From NCBI GenBank assembly GCA_030424975.1, contig JAUHVY010000002.1:744001-808000 (forward strand): 64,000 nt of DNA, written 5' to 3'. Origin of the DNA: Alphaproteobacteria bacterium (GTDB taxonomy: Bacteria; Pseudomonadota; Alphaproteobacteria; Micavibrionales; Micavibrionaceae). The position numbers and the translations under genes are program-made. Within the stretch, counting starts at the first letter, position 1. Each line of letters starts with the position of its first letter. The notes beneath the pieces were generated by a model. It saw only the letters and a program-made list of their open reading frames with translations. It was not told the DNA's origin and did not search any database. This document shows positions 14,739 to 26,135 of this stretch, one piece after another.

Positions 14739-15377
14739 ATGGTCGCACGCATTAACACAGTGGCTTTTCAGGGGGTGGAGGTTAAATCTGTTGATGTGCA
14801 GGTGCAAATTTCTAATGGATTACCCGCGTTTAATATTGTTGGTCTTCCCGATAAAGCTGTCGCGGAAAGCAAGGAGCGCGTTCGTGCGGCGCTCCATGCG
14901 CTGGGGTTATCCCTGCCGCCGAAGCGTCTGACCGTGAATATGGCACCTGCGGATCTGTCGAAGGAGGGAAGTCATTTTGATTTACCCATTGCGATGGGGG
15001 TTCTTGGCGCGATGGGAGTTCTGCCAAAGGAAGAGCTGGAAAATTACGTGGTCTTGGGGGAGCTGTCACTCGATGCATCCATCCGCGCCGTGTCAGGTGT
15101 ATTGCCTGCGGCGATGCATGCAGGGGCGATTGATCGTAACCTGATCTGTCCGCGTGATTGTGGCGGTGAGGCCGCTTGGGCGGGGGAGATTGATATTCTT
15201 GCGCCCTCTGATTTATTACAATTGATTAATCACATAAAGGGATCGCAGGTTCTTGCGCGCCCCGAAGCAAAATTGGCCAATGATAATGCCGTCCATATTC
15301 CGGATCTTGCGGATGTAAAAGGGCAGGAAAGTGCCAAACGTGCGTTGGAAATCGCCGCCGCAGGCGGGCATAATATG
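14739..15377 (+). pseudogene. comM: comM (YifB/Mg-chelatase-like AAA ATPase), 5' part, interrupted by genomic island; the local ORF continues to 15455 with 25 island-encoded codons
   Basis: MVARINTVAFQGVEVKSVDVQVQISNGLPAFNIVGLPDKAVAESKERVRAAL...GGHNM; remainder starts at 25245. Confidence 0.92.
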
Positions 15378-15400
15378 CTATTGTTGTGGCCAATTAAATA
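15366..15400 (+). other. attL of serine recombinase element: chromosomal gggcataatatg + CT core (15378-15379) + attP arm attgttgtggccaattaaata
   Basis: Arm 15380-15400 is the imperfect inverted repeat of 25224-25244; frame analysis places the CT core. Confidence 0.85.
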
Positions 15401-15745
15401 CGTAAAAAAAGTAGGTCGTACTATATTTGTTCGAGGTTTTATCGTGTCTTTTTAATACAATTTGGCATTCTTATTAGAGGCAAAGGGGGGGGCGCGATTA
15501 TGTTTACGCATTAGCAAATTAGAATGATATCGAAATATTGGCATCTAAAAGCGGTCAGCCACAATGGAGATCAACAGCAAGCTTGTGTAAAATATTAAAG
15601 ATCTCAAAAAACTAAAATTTCTACTTTTGGGCTATTAGTCGAAGAAGAAAGGAATAGTTTTAATAAAAAAAGAAGCCTTGATTTTTTTAATTTTTTATGT
15701 ATTAAATTCTACTAATTACATACAACTATTGCTTGTGAGAATTCT

Positions 15746-16039
15746 ATGAAAAAGAAAAAGTTTTTAACCCCCCTTGCTCTTTCAGTTGCAGCCTTGGTTT
15801 CGGCTGCAGGTGTAGCTGATGCAAAAGCAATAGATACAGAAAGCTTAGAAGCTAAATCAAAAACTCAGACAGAAATTTCGCGATTTTTTGACTTAGACAA
15901 AGATTTTGTTTTAGAAAGAAGCCAAGAAACAATGCAATATGCGCAACATCGTTCTCATTACTCACATAGATCTCATTCGAGTCACTCAAGTCACTCAAGT
16001 CATTCAAGCCATACTTCGCATTATTCAAGTTCTTATTAA
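15746..16039 (+). CDS. hxsA: His-Xaa-Ser repeat precursor protein HxsA
   Basis: N-terminal hydrophobic signal-like segment and C-terminal HRS-HYS-HRS-HSSx4-HTS-HYS repeats; followed by hxsD/B/C. Confidence 0.93.
   Translation: MKKKKFLTPLALSVAALVSAAGVADAKAIDTESLEAKSKTQTEISRFFDLDKDFVLERSQETMQYAQHRSHYSHRSHSSHSSHSSHSSHTSHYSSSY
15947..16027 (+). repeat. Coding triplet repeats for nine His-X-Ser triads
   Basis: Codons read HRS HYS HRS HSS HSS HSS HSS HTS HYS; local 9-nt near-repeats cactcaagt. Confidence 0.95.
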
Positions 16040-16053
16040 AAGGGGGCGGTTTA

Positions 16054-16362
16054 ATGTCGAGTGAGGGTACGGCTACTGTAAGCTTTGATAGTTCTGTTTT
16101 TGACCTCGATACTGTTAAAAAGTCCGCTTACAAATTTTCGGACTTAGTGTCTTTTGATATTCGTACTTCCAAAAATGAAATTGTCTGTGAACTTACTTTA
16201 CTTGATAAGAAAACTACAGACAGCCTAGAAAACATCGTTAAGAAATTAAAAAATGAAATCTTAGATCAAGATTTGAGAAAAAAAATCTTTGACGAGACAG
16301 AAATTGTAAGAAACGTCATTTTAGCTCACGTTTTTTCAAATACAGGTCTACAAGATGGCTAA
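16054..16362 (+). CDS. hxsD: His-Xaa-Ser system protein HxsD
   Basis: 102-aa ORF with strong RBS (agggggcgg) between hxsA and the radical SAM genes; size and position match HxsD. Confidence 0.85.
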   Translation: MSSEGTATVSFDSSVFDLDTVKKSAYKFSDLVSFDIRTSKNEIVCELTLLDKKTTDSLENIVKKLKNEILDQDLRKKIFDETEIVRNVILAHVFSNTGLQDG

Positions 16363-17821
16363 ATTTAGAGAACAATGTCATTACTCAAGTGTGCTAGACT
16401 CCGGATATAAAATTTTACCGTTTTCATTTACAAGTCTTGATGAGAATCGCTATGTAGCAACAAATGTTGCAGGTGAGTACATCGTTATTGAGCGTAATGA
16501 TCTTTATGATTTTGCTCAGCATAAACTTGATAACGCTTCAGAGATTTATAATGACTTGAAATCAAAGCATTTTTTATATGATGATGATAGTAATGTTGCT
16601 ATCGATCTGCTGGCACTCAAGCAGAGAACAAAACTAAGAAGACTCTCTGATTTTACTGGGTTGCATATGTTTGTAGTTAGCCTGAGATGTGAACATTCAT
16701 GCCCATATTGTCAAGTATCTAGAGCGAATAATGATGCAATGAAAGCAAAGTTTGATATGACGCAAGATGTTGCTGATAAGGCACTTGCTATGACTTTTCG
16801 ATCACCATCACCTGCTATCAAGGTTGAATTTCAAGGCGGTGAATCATTACTAAATTTTGATATAATCAAGTACATTGTTCAGAAAGCAAAACAAATAAAT
16901 GAAACAGAGCAAAGAGATTTACAGTTTGTTATTGCAACAAATCTTGCTCTTGTTGAGGAAGATATACTTGAGTTTTGTAAGGAACACAATATCTTGATTT
17001 CAACATCACTCGATGGTCCTAAAGAGCTACATAATAAAAATAGACCAAGGCCAGGCAACAACAGCTACGAAAAGACGATTGAGGGAATTGAGAAGTGTCG
17101 TGAAATTCTTGGCCCTGAACGCGTTTCAGCATTAATGACAACAACAAAAGAAAGTATTAGTCAGCCTATTGAAATTATTGATGAGTATATTGCCCAAAAA
17201 TTCAATGGAATATTTTTAAGACCTCTTTCGCCATACGGCTTTGCAATTAAAACAAAATTTTTCAGAGCTTATGGGTTTCAAGAATGGCTGGATTTTTACT
17301 TTGAAGGCTTAGAGTACATTATAGAATTAAACAAAAACGGTTTCTTCTTTATTGAGCAGTATGCTGCAACAATTCTTTCAAAAATGCTTACGCCGTACGC
17401 TACAGGCTATGTCGATTTGATGAGTCCTGCTGGCATAGGCATTGGTGCTGTGATTTACAACTATGACGGTGATGTTTATGCGTCTGATGAGGGGCGTATG
17501 CTTGCAGAAATGGATGACAAGTCATTTCGTTTGGGCAATGTCAAGGAAAACACATACGAAGAAATTTTTACATCTGAAACTTTGCTTGATGCAATTGAAG
17601 AAAGCTATACAGGTAGTGTTCCGATGTGTTCTGAGTGTGCTTTCGAAGTATATTGTGGATCAGATCCAGTATATCATCATGCAACTCAAAAAGATTTTGT
17701 TGGTCATAAACCATCATCTGAATTCTGTGGTCGTAATATGAGCATCTTTAAAAGGTTAATTGATATGATGGAAGCGGATGCACAGGTCAAAGAAGTTTTT
17801 TATTCATGGGTGAGAATGTAA
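16355..17821 (+). CDS. hxsB: His-Xaa-Ser system radical SAM maturase HxsB
   Basis: LRCEHSCPYCQVSR (CX3CX2C), C-terminal SPASM-like cysteines CSECAFEVYCGSDP...FCGRN. Confidence 0.92.
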   Translation: MAKFREQCHYSSVLDSGYKILPFSFTSLDENRYVATNVAGEYIVIERNDLYDFAQHKLDNASEIYNDLKSKHFLYDDDSNVAIDLLALKQRTKLRRLSDFTGLHMFVVSLRCEHSCPYCQVSRANNDAMKAKFDMTQDVADKALAMTFRSPSPAIKVEFQGGESLLNFDIIKYIVQKAKQINETEQRDLQFVIATNLALVEEDILEFCKEHNILISTSLDGPKELHNKNRPRPGNNSYEKTIEGIEKCREILGPERVSALMTTTKESISQPIEIIDEYIAQKFNGIFLRPLSPYGFAIKTKFFRAYGFQEWLDFYFEGLEYIIELNKNGFFFIEQYAATILSKMLTPYATGYVDLMSPAGIGIGAVIYNYDGDVYASDEGRMLAEMDDKSFRLGNVKENTYEEIFTSETLLDAIEESYTGSVPMCSECAFEVYCGSDPVYHHATQKDFVGHKPSSEFCGRNMSIFKRLIDMMEADAQVKEVFYSWVRM

Positions 17822-17824
17822 AAT

Positions 17825-18988
17825 ATGATACCACTAGCCGCCCATAAACTTAAATTTTTAAATTTCTCTGAACAAGAAGAACCATTCATTATTAAATTGT
17901 ATGAAGATAAAATGCTACCTGTACCTCTTAGAAAGGCCGGAGCTTATATCATCACAGACGATGACATTCCAGATCATTATTCATGCTATATTTGTTTTGA
18001 TAAGAAACAGGCTGAGAAAATAATAGAGCAAAGTAAGCGGGCTGTCTGTTTAGATGATAATTACAAGCATCTTTCGAATGGCGATGTAGTAAGAATTAAT
18101 CCAGCAAACAAAAGTATGAGAATTCTTTATAGGCGGAATTCTGAACACAATAGTTTCTTAGTTACAGAAAGATGCAATCATTATTGTTTAATGTGTTCTC
18201 AACCACCTAAAAAGATTGATGATAGCTGGATTGTAAATGAAATATTAGAAACGATACCATTAATAGATCCTGAGACCAAGGAAATCGGTTTTACTGGCGG
18301 TGAACCGACGCTTCTGGAAGATGATTTTTTACGAATTTTACAAAAATGTAAAAACTATCTTCCAAACTCGGCAGTTCATATTCTCAGTAATGGACGAAAG
18401 TTTGCAGATATTGACTATGCAGTCAAATATTCGCAAATTGACCATCCTGATATGATGTTGGGTATTCCACTTTACTCTGATGTTTCTCATATTCATGATT
18501 ATGTCGTACAAGCTGACAATGCTTTTGATGAAACAATTCGGGGAATACTAAATCTTAAAAAACTACGTCAAAAAGTTGAAATACGTATTGTAATACATAA
18601 ACAGACATATAAGCGTTTACCGCAGTTAGCTGAGTTCCTGGCACGTAATCTACTATTCGTAGATCATGTTGCTTTGATGGGGCTAGAAATTATGGGATTT
18701 ACAAAAGCAAACATGGATGATCTTTGGATTGATATGCATGATTATCAGCATGAGTTAGTGGTTGCAACAAAAAGGCTTGCAAGTGCTGGGATAAACGTTT
18801 CAATCTATAACCATCAACTGTGTGTTTTAGATAAATCAATCTGGCCTTATGCGCGCAAATCTATTTCTGACTGGAAAAATGATTATCTTGCTGAGTGTGA
18901 AATGTGTGCAAAACAAGATCAATGCGGTGGTTTCTTTAGTTCTCAACTTCTGAAGCCTAGTAATTATATTAAGGCATTTGATGATTAG
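17825..18988 (+). CDS. hxsC: His-Xaa-Ser system radical SAM maturase HxsC
   Basis: ERCNHYCLMCSQPPK (CX3CX2C), GFTGGEPTLL, C-terminal CEMCAKQDQCGGFF. Confidence 0.92.
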   Translation: MIPLAAHKLKFLNFSEQEEPFIIKLYEDKMLPVPLRKAGAYIITDDDIPDHYSCYICFDKKQAEKIIEQSKRAVCLDDNYKHLSNGDVVRINPANKSMRILYRRNSEHNSFLVTERCNHYCLMCSQPPKKIDDSWIVNEILETIPLIDPETKEIGFTGGEPTLLEDDFLRILQKCKNYLPNSAVHILSNGRKFADIDYAVKYSQIDHPDMMLGIPLYSDVSHIHDYVVQADNAFDETIRGILNLKKLRQKVEIRIVIHKQTYKRLPQLAEFLARNLLFVDHVALMGLEIMGFTKANMDDLWIDMHDYQHELVVATKRLASAGINVSIYNHQLCVLDKSIWPYARKSISDWKNDYLAECEMCAKQDQCGGFFSSQLLKPSNYIKAFDD

Positions 18989-19174
18989 ATTGTATTCTAT
19001 AATTGTAGCTCCAATCTTTAAAAGCTAATCTCAAAAACGCATGTATTCTGCACTTTTAATTGATCTGCCTTGGTTAATGCTGCCTTTATCCTTCTAATTA
19101 TTTCTCTTTTCCTTATCTGGCATCATTAATTCCTTTGTTGCTTCTTAATAATTCGTAATATATGTTTGCGAATG

Positions 19175-19349
19175 AAAGTCTATGTAAGACTTTTGAGGCT
19201 TGGAAACCTCTTCTGAAAGCGATTTGTGTAATCGTTAATACACTCCTCGACACTTCGTATGTCGGGGAGGCAATGATGTATGTTCAAGTGTGAAAACACT
19301 AAAGATTATTGCGGTCTCTCTTTCAGAAGACTTTCCAACTCCCCGACAC
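19175..19349 (+). ncRNA. Predicted multi-hairpin structured RNA (or structured ssDNA) element of unknown class
   Basis: AAAGTCT/AGACTTT (19175/19187); long pairing TTGGAAA..TCTTCTGAAAG (19200-19219) with CTTTCAGAAGA.TTTCCAA (19320-19338); CGATT/AATCG (19220/19230); CTCCTCGACA/TGTCGGGGAG (19243/19260); AGTGT-GAAA-ACACT; extra perfect complement CTCCCCGACA at 19339. Confidence 0.55.
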
Positions 19350-19369
19350 CAGTGAAGAGGAAGAAAGAC

Positions 19370-19474
19370 ATGAAAGAAGAAAAACACTCCGACAAATCAG
19401 CTTTTGTATTTGCATATAGTGCGTGCGCATTTTCAGGATTTTTAGTCGGTGTGTGCGTAGGGCTGATGTTTTAA
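19370..19474 (+). CDS. Small single-TM peptide MKEEKHSDKSAFVFAYSACAFSGFLVGVCVGLMF (ORF track start at 19280 is probably too early)
   Basis: Purine-rich RBS (gaagaggaagaaag) before ATG 19370; one hydrophobic segment. Confidence 0.4.
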   Translation: MKEEKHSDKSAFVFAYSACAFSGFLVGVCVGLMF

Positions 19475-19477
19475 AGG

Positions 19478-19747
19478 ATGAAGAAAAATAATTTAAAATC
19501 TAATGGATATGGAAGATTCATACAAAAAGTAGTATTAAGCGTTGATCGTAAATATATTGAAGCTGCAGCATCTGCTTTATGTTGTTCTGACATTAAAAAT
19601 TTGAAGAATACTCATTCTGAAATAATCTGGATGCGTAAATCGACAGTATGTGGGGATGATGAAACAATTAATCTTGAAGCGGAAATTTTGCTACATGAAA
19701 TTCCGCGATCAAGTTGGACGATCATATGGGATCGCTCAGTTTATTAA
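19478..19747 (+). CDS. Hypothetical 89-aa protein
   Basis: ORF 3 bp after the small TM ORF, ribosome-binding aaagg upstream. Confidence 0.45.
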   Translation: MKKNNLKSNGYGRFIQKVVLSVDRKYIEAAASALCCSDIKNLKNTHSEIIWMRKSTVCGDDETINLEAEILLHEIPRSSWTIIWDRSVY

Positions 19748-20337
19748 TTTTTTTCTTTAACTATGATGATGAAGTCATCGGATGTGAAGGTGCTTTTTGT
19801 GTATTTCTTGAAGCAATAATTTACACATCTATCATAATCGCAATCACTGCATAACAGGGCAGCGTATAGGCTTTGTAATTGCGGGCGGGTTTTGGGAAAG
19901 TCGAGCTTGTTTTTTTTGTTGTAATTAGGATCAATAAATTTCCTATGAAAATCTATTCTGATTTCACAATCTTTGATTTTTTCATTGTAATTAAAATAAA
20001 CAGATTCAAATGTTTTTCTCTGAAAGCGTTGCATTCTTTCTTTATGAACGAATAGAAATCCATGATAATGCTGCGCAAGAGGTTCTTCTGGAATTAAAAA
20101 AAGCATTGGCGCTTTCTTATTTTCTGATGAGTTTAAAGAAATCACATTATCATATTTGTAATAAATTTTTTGAAAAACTTTTTCGTAATCTTCATGTTTA
20201 TATGTAGTCTTCATATCATTGAATGTGTAAGTCATAAAAATTACATTGTATTTATCTTTTTGATTATGGATTATTTGGTTAAAGTTATTTGCAAAATCTC
20301 TCTTGTCTTTGTTTTCTCTAATGTAATTTTCAATCAT
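19744..20337 (-). CDS. Putative HUH endonuclease / replication initiator-like protein
   Basis: Motif I-like VIFMTYTFND, HUH motif QHYHGFLFVH, motif III-like VNYCFKKYTK (YxxK). Confidence 0.55.
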   Translation of the reverse strand: MIENYIRENKDKRDFANNFNQIIHNQKDKYNVIFMTYTFNDMKTTYKHEDYEKVFQKIYYKYDNVISLNSSENKKAPMLFLIPEEPLAQHYHGFLFVHKERMQRFQRKTFESVYFNYNEKIKDCEIRIDFHRKFIDPNYNKKNKLDFPKTRPQLQSLYAALLCSDCDYDRCVNYCFKKYTKSTFTSDDFIIIVKEKN

Positions 20338-23294: not shown

Positions 23295-25190
23295 TTATTT
23301 TTCACTATTTTTATTTTTTATGGATCTTGTTTTGTACTTAGAGGATTTTTGTCTTTTTGCTAATGCTTCAGCAGCTAATTTACTTTGTTCACGTTTCTCA
23401 ATGTTTCCTATAAAGGCTAAGAATTTCTTATTGTCGTGCTTCCATGACATTTTTGTGTATGGATGTATTTTCTTTTGTGCTCCATTCTTAAACACAACAA
23501 CAAAGTGTCTCCCCATTTCATTAATAAGGCGTTTTCCATGATCTGTTTTAAGTAATTCTATAAATTGTTCTTTAGTATATCCTTTTTGATCAATAGCGCG
23601 CCGAACTAATAGAGGAAGAATTTCACTGATATCTTCCCAAGGATAAAAATCTATTGGCTCATTATACATTTTTATTTCTGAAACTATTTTGGATATCTGA
23701 CTATGTATTCTTCTTCTTAATGATGCTCGTTCTTCGGAGCTAGCTAATTTCTGTTGTTCTTCAATTGCTATCAATAATTCTTTCTTAGTTTCTTTCGAAT
23801 TTCTGCCTTCTATAGCAGTCAACTCTAATTCTATTTCTTTTTGTCGTTTTTCTATAGATGCGGATTCTATGCTTAGGTCGTTGATTTTATCAGTCAGCTT
23901 TTTTTTAGCTGCATCTTTTATCTCGCCCTCCAAATCAAGTAGTTGATCAATTTTTCTATCAATCTGATTTATCTTCATTTCATTGATTTTTTGTTCGTCT
24001 GATAGCTTGGTTTTTAGACTTTTGTCATTTCCTTTCTTAAGTGCTTCTTCAAACTCAACTTCTGAAACAAAATCAAAGAAATGTTTTTCAAAATCATCAT
24101 ATCTCCAAGAAGTAGAGTTACATGAATGACGCAACTCTGCACCACCGCATCTTAAATATTGTTGCCCTTTAGGTGGTTTACCTTTGTTTAAATATTGTAC
24201 AGTTGCACCACAATTTCCACAGATCAAAAGCTTAGTAAAAATGTTGCTGAAATTATCACCTTTTCTGCCTCCTGATTTATTTGATTTGTTCTTCATGAGT
24301 GATTGCGTTAATAAAAAACGATCTTTAGTAATGACAGCAGGAAAGTAATTTTCGTAGACAGTATTTGTCTCATGTCTTTTTCCGTTAATCATTTCATGTG
24401 GAATAAATTCACCGCAAACAGCAGGATTATTTAAAATTTTAAGAACATAAGATTTTTGCCACCCCATATTTCTATTGGATTTGTTATTTAAGCGGCTAAA
24501 TTTAGGAAATTGCTCTAGGTGAGTGTTTAGAAAACGAGCTATTGAATACGCGCCCATACCCTCGTCTATATATAGTTCAAAGATTTTTTCAATAGTCTTT
24601 GCTCTTTCTGGAATAATTCTAAAATCAGTCTTTTTCTTGCTTGCTTCTAGCCAAGCAGGGCAGACAGTTGTAAGAATACCTTTATCAAGGTTATTTCTTT
24701 TGTTTTGCCAACTTTTTTTCAGACGCCTTGACTTTTCTTCGCTCTCAGAGTGAGCCCGAAGCATGTAGCCTATTGAAGAAAAAAGCTGGCCTGGATTACT
24801 TTTCAGACTACTTTGAGTGTAGATTTGTCTATCAAAAACTGTATGTATTTCAATGCCAGTTTTTAAAATATCATTGAATTGACTAAAAGCGTCGGCAGGG
24901 CTTTCTCTAGACAAGCGATCTAGACTTTCTACAAGCAGAATGCAATCACTGTCGATTTCTCCCCTTTCTATAGATTTTAAGAATAAGCCTAGTTTCCCTT
25001 TTTTTATGTTAGCGCCATGATAAGCAGATATTCCAATATCACGTAAATCTTCAACAAGTTGAAAGCCTTTTTCTTCTGCATAATCACGCGTTAATTGTAA
25101 TTGTCGCTCTAGAGAATTGCCCTTCAATTGAGTTTCTGTACTCATTCTGATATAGCTGAAAGCGAGTTTTTTAGACATTTTCTTCCGCAC
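23295..25190 (-). CDS. Large serine recombinase
   Basis: N-terminal resolvase domain FSYIRMSTETQLKGNSLERQ, VESLDRLSRESPADA; zinc ribbon LLICGNCGATV...YLRCGG; coiled-coil region; adjacent to attR. Confidence 0.93.
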   Translation of the reverse strand: MRKKMSKKLAFSYIRMSTETQLKGNSLERQLQLTRDYAEEKGFQLVEDLRDIGISAYHGANIKKGKLGLFLKSIERGEIDSDCILLVESLDRLSRESPADAFSQFNDILKTGIEIHTVFDRQIYTQSSLKSNPGQLFSSIGYMLRAHSESEEKSRRLKKSWQNKRNNLDKGILTTVCPAWLEASKKKTDFRIIPERAKTIEKIFELYIDEGMGAYSIARFLNTHLEQFPKFSRLNNKSNRNMGWQKSYVLKILNNPAVCGEFIPHEMINGKRHETNTVYENYFPAVITKDRFLLTQSLMKNKSNKSGGRKGDNFSNIFTKLLICGNCGATVQYLNKGKPPKGQQYLRCGGAELRHSCNSTSWRYDDFEKHFFDFVSEVEFEEALKKGNDKSLKTKLSDEQKINEMKINQIDRKIDQLLDLEGEIKDAAKKKLTDKINDLSIESASIEKRQKEIELELTAIEGRNSKETKKELLIAIEEQQKLASSEERASLRRRIHSQISKIVSEIKMYNEPIDFYPWEDISEILPLLVRRAIDQKGYTKEQFIELLKTDHGKRLINEMGRHFVVVFKNGAQKKIHPYTKMSWKHDNKKFLAFIGNIEKREQSKLAAEALAKRQKSSKYKTRSIKNKNSEK

Positions 25191-25223: not shown

Positions 25224-25260
25224 TATTTAATTGGCCATAATATACTCATGATCGGTCCGC
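25224..25260 (+). other. attR of serine recombinase element: attP arm tatttaattggccataatata + CT core (25245-25246) + chromosomal catgatcggtccgc
   Basis: Inverted-repeat partner of 15380-15400; CT core restores comM frame. Confidence 0.85.
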
Positions 25261-26135
25261 CCGGATCGGGGAAATCGATGCTCGCCAGCTGTTTGCCGGG
25301 TATTTTACCGCCTTTATCACCCAAAGAAGCGCTTGAACTGTCGATGATTCATTCTATCGCCGGTGCTTTGCCCGAAGGCGGGCTTATTCGTACGCGGCCA
25401 TTTCGATGCCCTCATCATTCAGCGTCGCAACCTGCGTTAATCGGTGGCGGGCAACGCGTAAAGCCTGGAGAAATTTCTCTGGCACATCATGGTGTGCTTT
25501 TTCTGGATGAGTTGCCGGAATTTGCGCGTGGCACACTCGAGGCTTTACGCCAGCCATTGGAAACGGGTGATGCGTTGGTTGCGCGGGCAAATGCCCATAT
25601 TAAATATCCTGCGCGGTTTCAATTGATCGCTGCGATGAATCCGTGTCGGTGCGGTTATTTAGGGGATGTCGATATGGAGTGCACAAAGGCGCCGCGATGC
25701 GGGTCGGATTATCAATCAAAGATTTCAGGGCCGCTTATGGATCGTATTGACATACATGTGGATGTGCCCGCTGTGCAGCTCAGTGATTTGCATGGTGCGC
25801 CTGTGGGCGATTCATCGGCTGTCGTGGCTGCGCGCATTATAAAGGCACGTGAAATACAGGCCGCTCGTTATGCGAATACTGACTTCCCGATCGGGCGTGC
25901 ACCGATAAACGCAAACGCAGATTCGACCCGTATTGAGGCTGTGACCCAGATGGATGTTGATGTGCGTGATATATTCATGAAATCGATTGAAAATGCCAAA
26001 ATTTCAGCGCGCGGGTATTACCGTATATTGCGCGTGGCACGGACGATTGCTGATTTGGATGGAGGCAAAGAAAAGCTTACGAAACAAGATGTTGCACAGG
26101 CTTTAAGCTATCGCAGAATGGCGCTAAATGCCTAG
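25245..26135 (+). pseudogene. comM: comM 3' part (Walker A to C-terminus), separated from 5' part by island
   Basis: MIGPPGSGKSMLASCLPGILPPL, FRCPHHSAS, LFLDELPEF, AAMNPCRCG. Confidence 0.93.

Follow-up and report, generated by a model that had tools for sequence, protein, structure and literature searches.

The RNAs that most closely resemble the one described here are the C4 RNA of phages P1 and P7, the CI RNA of the satellite phage P4 and the small RNA sRNA-Xcc1. Processing of C4 RNA by RNase P is known. C4 of P1 and P7 (Citron and Schuster 1990, cited in PMC8201110) has a layout of the A-RNA-C type. The P4 CI RNA pairs with two sites, seqA and seqC, located up- and downstream (PMC4825925). 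sRNA-Xcc1 was mapped by RACE as an 88-nt RNA (PMC2996969) and, in E. coli EDL933, an 89-nt match to it yielded 40,293 reads, near the level of CsrB (PMC5331693).

We analysed a stretch of 64,000 nucleotides from an alphaproteobacterium of the family Micavibrionaceae (contig JAUHVY010000002.1, positions 744,001 to 808,000), hereafter the window. The first-pass annotation of this DNA had described a multi-branched RNA-like structure of no recognised class at 19171-19349, and had suggested that a competing 10-nt strand might make it a conformational switch upstream of a small ORF at 19370. We divide the locus as follows.

19174-19194, + strand: 5' hairpin GAAAGTC/GACTTTT, from the predicted fold and the flanks of homologues
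19195-19369, + strand: structured leader, full extent
19195-19219, + strand: segment A, the GAGG/CCTC hairpin (19195-19210) and the 5' strand of the closing helix, CTTCTGAAAG (19210-19219), supported by covariation
19220-19243, + strand: P2 hairpin CGATT/AATCG (19220-19224/19230-19234) with its loop pairing, supported by covariation in 99 copies
19243-19252, + strand: 5' strand of P3, CTCCTCGACA, the weaker partner of 19260-19269, with a U.G wobble kept in most copies
19260-19269, + strand: 3' strand of P3, TGTCGGGGAG, the most conserved segment, which pairs with 19243-19252 or 19339-19348
19270-19312, + strand: P4 and P5 region, with P4 GCAAT/ATTGC at 19270-19274/19308-19312; the stems covary in 99 copies
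19287-19300, + strand: P5, AGTGT-GAAA-ACACT, with a covarying stem
19314-19338, + strand: segment B, the 3' strands of the closing helix and of its pseudoknot, which pairs with segment A
19339-19348, + strand: competing 3' strand, CTCCCCGACA, which forms the alternative helix with 19260-19269 and whose first nucleotides complement the ribosome-binding site in other copies
19348-19351, + strand: ACCA directly 3' of the alternative stem, a tRNA-acceptor-like sequence
19358-19369, + strand: ribosome-binding site AGGAAG and spacer (segment C), read from the sequence
19370-19474, + strand: 34-aa ORF with one hydrophobic stretch, 14 nt past the RNA core, the putative regulated gene
19478-19747, + strand: 89-aa ORF after the 34-aa ORF and in the same direction, possibly co-transcribed

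The fold predicted for 19171-19349 has a minimum free energy (MFE) of −60.1 kcal/mol, against −38.1 ± 4.1 kcal/mol for 200 shuffled sequences, none of which reached it (z = −5.4). The fold is not due to chance, and every helix that had been named from the sequence is present in it at the same coordinates. The imperfect ~18-bp closing helix proposed earlier is also found as pairing, between 19200-19206 and 19332-19338 and between 19210-19219 and 19320-19329, but its outer 7 bp are a loop-to-strand pseudoknot, in which the loop of the GAGG/CCTC hairpin, TTGGAAA (19200-19206), pairs with 19332-19338. In a second pseudoknot, the P2 loop GTGT (19226-19229) pairs with ACAC (19240-19243), just 5' of the 10-bp hairpin P3. 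Segments A and B are complementary, with a pairing energy of −23.1 kcal/mol in the window. P4 and P5 are separated by a conserved internal loop, GATGTATGTTCA ... CTAAAG, and many plasmid copies carry a GC-rich hairpin in their flanks at the equivalent of 19174-19194.

No terminator hairpin was found in the window copy. Nucleotides 19314-19324 (GTCTCTCTTTC) show a modest complementarity to the ribosome-binding site at 19359-19369 (10 bp with one mismatch, −12.5 kcal/mol). When the leader was extended to the ATG, the MFE structure favoured the alternative helix and the freed 5' strand of P3 covered the SD sequence; thus modelled, the window SD may be covered by this released strand rather than by segment B. 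The 91 nt at 19261-19351 fold into an sRNA-like form (−33.6 kcal/mol, z = −4.6). The reverse strand of the stretch has about the same folding energy, so energy alone does not assign a strand. At one position of the 10-bp helix, however, the commonest pair in an alignment of 99 copies is U-G (52 copies, with C-G in 38 and U-A in 3), and an RNA from the + strand fits these conserved U.G pairs as well as the terminators and ribosome-binding sites on the same strand.

The RNA lies directly downstream of a complete His-Xaa-Ser peptide-modification cassette, hxsADBC (HxsA-like, HxsD, HxsB and HxsC; 15746-18988). ORFs at 14739-15455 and 25248-26135 read as a ComM/YifB-type gene in two halves, N-terminal and C-terminal respectively, separated by an island of ~9.8 kb. 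Besides the RNA, this island contains two recombinase genes, one of the tyrosine type (20832) and a large one of the serine type (23295-25190, minus strand). A 197-aa protein with an HYHGFLF motif is encoded at 19744-20337 (minus strand); it had no match in Pfam, NCBIfam or PHROGs and no plasmid relative. The 89-aa ORF at 19478-19747 likewise matched no family in these three databases.

Used as a BLASTN query, the window segment matched no plasmid or phage. Among 191 genomes sampled from the class, one, G116, which belongs to another alphaproteobacterial family, had a 69%-identical copy. Between the two copies, both sides had changed in nine pairs with pairing kept, as where GTGT/ACAC of the window is GTGC/GCAC in G116, and every loop motif was retained, the P4/P5 internal loop being invariant. 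The wider family was detected only after the G116 copy had served as a BLASTN bridge. We built a covariance model, R1, from the window and G116 copies, which helped to reveal the wider family, and a second, R2, from 25 sequences that include the window copy. The 99 copies analysed below come from covariance-model searches. With R2, the window copy scored 139 bits, the second highest of 99 copies, as a member of the model itself.

Copies occur on plasmids, genomic islands and prophages. Plasmid copies were found in Shinella, Agrobacterium, Rhizobium, Sinorhizobium, Bradyrhizobium, Paracoccus, Methylobacterium and Brucella anthropi, and also in the planctomycete Singulisphaera. A single query matched 302 plasmid records, Ti-type plasmids included, of which 250 are predicted to be conjugative. 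According to the R2 search, 52 of 387 alphaproteobacterial genomes (~13%) have a copy, and several have four to seven; in a phylum-wide sample, a copy was present in 33 of 399 genomes, 12 of them outside the Alphaproteobacteria. Two contigs of one deltaproteobacterial MAG carry further copies. The genome of the window has a second one, with a terminator-like hairpin (G000:C2:258876-259058, equivalent to L101:2377-2559, minus strand), followed by an excisionase-like ORF (PHROGs phrog_66, E = 2.6e-4). At L075:1382-1650, two tandem copies precede a 35-aa hydrophobic ORF similar in size and character to the 34-aa ORF of the window. On a Shinella sumterensis plasmid (NZ_CP132306.1; L050:6632-8093), the 5' part of the RNA is apparently interrupted by a group II intron: ltrA is annotated just upstream and the core alignment begins in intron sequence.

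At the gathering threshold, Rfam returned only tRNA in the window and only an unrelated plasmid sRNA and tRNA at 15 homologue loci; matches in the window to snoRNA-like and cow-rumen-1 entries (E = 0.8-3.5) were dismissed as chance. A literature search, conducted mostly without subscription papers, found no name for the family, and in it sRNA-Xcc1 was nowhere called a C4-like leader RNA. The window RNA belongs to a large family of structured RNAs that had not been catalogued before; the family is absent from Rfam 15, and current genome annotation therefore misses it.

The first-pass annotation had named a lack of covariation among homologues as grounds for discarding the structure. In the 99-copy alignment, 90.9% of cells in the modelled fold pair and 39 of 42 pairs show compensatory changes, a result reached by none of 500 shuffles; slid controls, like the shuffles, came nowhere near the observed pairing. 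This alignment was fitted to the model and thus favours the modelled helices. The alternative helix is absent from the model and its support is consequently free of this bias. The perfect complementarity of 19339-19348 to 19260-19269 that had been noticed in the window extends to the family: 95.7% of cells are paired, nine of the ten pairs show double changes, and double-change cells number 48 against 9.4 expected (0 of 500). Strand pairs in other copies include GTCGGGGTG with CACCCCGAT, GTCTGGGAG with CTCCCAGAC, GCCGGAGG with CCTCCGGC, and GTCGGGAAG with CTTCCCGAC. The alternative helix is the stronger of the two in 86 of 90 copies (mean −19.8 versus −14.5 kcal/mol for P3), since P3 keeps its U.G wobbles; the 10-bp hairpin therefore appears to be built for displacement. 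Comparison across copies accordingly shows two conserved, mutually exclusive folds of the 3' part of the leader, which bears out the suggested conformational switch upstream of the ORF at 19370.

From the end of the RNA to the next start codon, the median distance is 45 nt in the 99 copies. Start codons were picked by rule, and for several downstream genes the description was read off the translation. These genes include traM, HTH regulators, a plasmid family of ~105 aa, pilin-like proteins, DNA methyltransferases or restriction-modification genes, lipoproteins and very small hydrophobic proteins; they are accessory and varied, and share no metabolic theme. The traM leaders are on pSinA (L054), pTiAg57 (L068) and pAtK84b (L069). 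TraM acts as antiactivator of TraR, which regulates conjugation. In an hfq mutant of A. tumefaciens, TraM is lowered (PMC4201532), possibly through the traM leader RNA.

Of 91 copies, 49 have a terminator-like hairpin that is G+C-rich and runs into T's. Its 5' arm nearly always begins with the GACC/GATC at the end of the competing strand, so that the terminator excludes the alternative helix. The competing strand also matches the ribosome-binding site of its own gene better than those of others (0 of 5000 permutations, relatedness uncorrected), as in CACCCC/GGGGTG (L084, L123) and CTCTCC/GGAGAG (L119), and the preference holds in the 45 copies without CTCCCC (p = 0.001, relatedness uncorrected). 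Among the alphaproteobacterial copies, complementarity of the RNA to its own ribosome-binding site was likewise matched by none of 3000 permutations (relatedness uncorrected). An RCC follows the stem in 67 of the 99 copies, including 25 of the 42 without a terminator, and is absent in a third. From its sequence, the RCC, ACCA in the window, could be a determinant for RNase P. The possibility that the GATGTATG motif encodes a leader peptide was dropped, as frames and lengths differ between copies.

The sole Rfam relation of the window RNA, to sRNA-Xcc1 (RF02221), is sub-threshold at 24.6 bits against a gathering cut-off of 53, in keeping with the earlier statement that the class was not recognised. 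The match starts at 19261. The second copy in the same genome scored 48.6 bits, also below the cut-off. The RF02221-type architecture, a stem enclosing two hairpins in about 88 nt, is nonetheless present at 19261-19351. The entry spans exactly the 3' half of the leader, from the 3' strand of P3 to the competing strand in their alternative pairing, and so does not explain the whole structure. The two models are connected by loci hit by both: G000:C2:258877-258966 (48.6 bits with RF02221, 50.2 with R2), G116:C16:80666, and L165 (71.3 bits with RF02221, 26.3 with R2). A GAGG-loop-CCTC hairpin is also found upstream of RF02221 hits. Judging by sequence, the window RNA is a relative of sRNA-Xcc1.

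At 26 of 29 sRNA-Xcc1 loci, a start codon with an SD sequence lies no more than 110 nt downstream. Antirepressor genes that follow such loci include L164 (PHROGs) and, in E. coli EDL933, the phage antirepressor Ant, 41 nt downstream of the RF02221 match in the same arrangement. The published EDL933 coordinate, 1392052, differs from that in the RefSeq assembly, 1394619-1394707, and strand and length agree; the two loci are likely identical.

The segment that separates P4 from the 3' strand at the sRNA-Xcc1 loci has two complementary sites, one in the upstream hairpin region and the other in the ribosome-binding region of the gene that follows. In L172, for instance, the RNA contains CTCTGG...GGTTTCTTAG, which is matched by CTAAGAAA...CCAGAG on the upstream side and by CTAAGAAAGCAGCCAGAGG at the SD sequence. 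Over the 29 loci, segment B paired with the upstream site at −23.4, versus −19.0 ± 0.5 when permuted, and with the downstream site at −17.4, versus −12.9 ± 0.5 (each 0 of 5000 permutations, relatedness uncorrected); both pairings are 8-9 standard deviations beyond the permuted values, and sites A and C share longer words than expected by chance. The layout of C4 and P4 CI, in which one segment pairs with sites on both sides, is thus found in these 29 loci and in the alphaproteobacterial copies. In the window alone, the upstream pairing is strong and the downstream pairing modest. In sRNA-Xcc1 loci such as L172, L173 and L181, a hairpin resembling an intrinsic terminator (CCGCACCCGACAG...GCGGTTTTTTT) is located between segment A and the RNA core, and its loop contains the 5' strand of P3.

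We consider that the window RNA is probably a leader-encoded, self-targeting antisense RNA of a mobile element, of the C4/P4-CI kind and related to sRNA-Xcc1. By comparison, the leader runs from segment A through the A-complementary segment B to the start of the next gene. In the P3 state, 19260-19269 would pair with its upstream strand, leaving the 3' strand free to form a terminator or to cover the ribosome-binding site. In the alternative state, the same nucleotides would pair with the 3' strand and close a compact domain of ~90 nt with a tRNA-acceptor-like end (RCC). The closed domain matches the mapped extent of sRNA-Xcc1. We infer that it is excised as a stable small RNA, probably by RNase P, the enzyme known to process C4 and a natural candidate because the RCC end resembles a tRNA acceptor. 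By analogy and complementarity, segment B of the excised RNA would then pair with segment A, the ribosome-binding site or both in further transcripts of the same element, leading to premature termination or blocked translation. An RNA that pairs with its own transcripts would therefore allow an established element to keep its adjacent gene low and a newcomer copy to express it briefly. In the window, this gene would be the 34-aa hydrophobic ORF at 19370.

The main rival is a purely cis-acting switch, either a riboswitch or a protein-dependent attenuator, in which a ligand or protein binds the core (GATGTATGTTCA/CTAAAG loop and pseudoknots) and selects P3, with the terminator formed or the SD covered (OFF), or the alternative helix (ON). 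Judged by complementarity and terminator counts, the family does have the exclusive, conserved helices controlling a terminator or SD that characterise riboswitch-type regulators, and the pseudoknots and invariant internal loop of its elaborate core, together with its several copies per genome before different genes, also suit such a switch. Downstream genes as varied as these would suit the sensing of a ligand or protein equally well, although their lack of a metabolic theme counts against it. For a riboswitch, moreover, the A-B-C complementarity and the discrete 88-nt sRNA-Xcc1 product would be superfluous, and we regard this explanation as unlikely, albeit a serious one.

The RNA might instead be a stand-alone sRNA that acts in trans on unrelated chromosomal genes, as proposed for sRNA-Xcc1, with its position incidental. 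The title of the 2011 paper by Chen et al. reportedly describes sRNA-Xcc1 as trans-acting. sRNA-Xcc1 is indeed expressed as a small RNA (PMC2996969), but in nearly all copies a start codon follows directly, and changes in the RNA track those in the ribosome-binding site of the adjacent gene, which makes this proposal improbable. Still less probable is the suggestion in the first-pass annotation of a single-stranded DNA structure that serves the HUH-like protein encoded at 19744-20337 or, more broadly, a site for conjugative transfer, replication or recombination. Copies are frequent on conjugative plasmids, in some cases with a relaxase gene nearby, yet the conserved U.G pairs of one strand, the terminators and the SD complementarity fit an RNA. 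Prophages or islands that lack relaxases account for many of the copies, the 19744-20337 protein itself matches no family in Pfam, NCBIfam or PHROGs, and no HUH protein turns up repeatedly among the genes annotated next to the plasmid copies. An integron attC site, considered because sRNA-Xcc1 is integron-borne, was rejected: the R/L-box layout is lacking and the element occurs outside integrons. Finally, a chance structure or a decayed, functionless element, to which the missing terminator, the modest SD complementarity and the tiny downstream ORF of the window might point, is scarcely credible given that every helix and conserved loop is intact and the copy ranks second of 99 at 139 bits, as a model member.

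Returning to the self-targeting antisense RNA, we tentatively propose, with somewhat less conviction than for the window itself, that the window RNA, the more than 300 plasmid leaders and all sRNA-Xcc1 form a single proteobacterial superfamily, with at least one planctomycete plasmid, of private, password-like self-repression RNAs that let an early or accessory gene be expressed mainly when the element enters a naive cell. On this view, sRNA-Xcc1 would be an immunity RNA rather than a regulator of virulence. If so, RNA self-silencing, known from few phages, would be common on conjugative plasmids, islands, integron cassettes and prophages, and sRNA-Xcc1, for which studies of its part in virulence regulation give many predicted targets, would have a simpler role directed at the gene immediately downstream. 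As the family includes the traM leader of Ti-type plasmids, the hold-down and release of conjugation genes would therefore gain a testable RNA component.

Among known systems, transcriptional and translational riboswitches share with this family mutually exclusive helices and a terminator or SD as output; they differ in that no ligand class is indicated here and the downstream genes have no common pathway. C4 (P1/P7, RF01695) is also found upstream of antirepressor operons, is complementary to the next ribosome-binding region and has a closed stem. RF01695 itself gave no match at the gathering threshold in the window or the loci scanned, and the search of the window stretch found none even with E values of up to 5 allowed. 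The P4 CI RNA is similar in layout: it is leader-encoded, its central segment pairs with up- and downstream sites, and its output is transcription termination. Unlike in P4 CI and C4, the match to the SD in the alphaproteobacterial copies comes chiefly from the 3' strand instead of the P1 strand. By description, IsrK/STnc1160 of Salmonella Gifsy-1 is comparable in having a terminated upstream RNA and a processed antisense RNA before an antirepressor operon (PMC4825925), and the hairpin of L172, L173 and L181 recalls the terminated SeqA and IsrK RNAs of P4 and Gifsy-1. sRNA-Xcc1 is treated in the literature as a trans-acting virulence sRNA, unlike the leader reading presented here, and its 87-nt Rfam model lacks segment A, P2 and the 5' strand of P3 and gives no mechanism. 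Like the window RNA, however, it has a closing stem that corresponds to the alternative helix, a P4/P5-like hairpin, an antisense hairpin and an RCC after the stem, and, like the window family, it resides on mobile elements directly before a gene.
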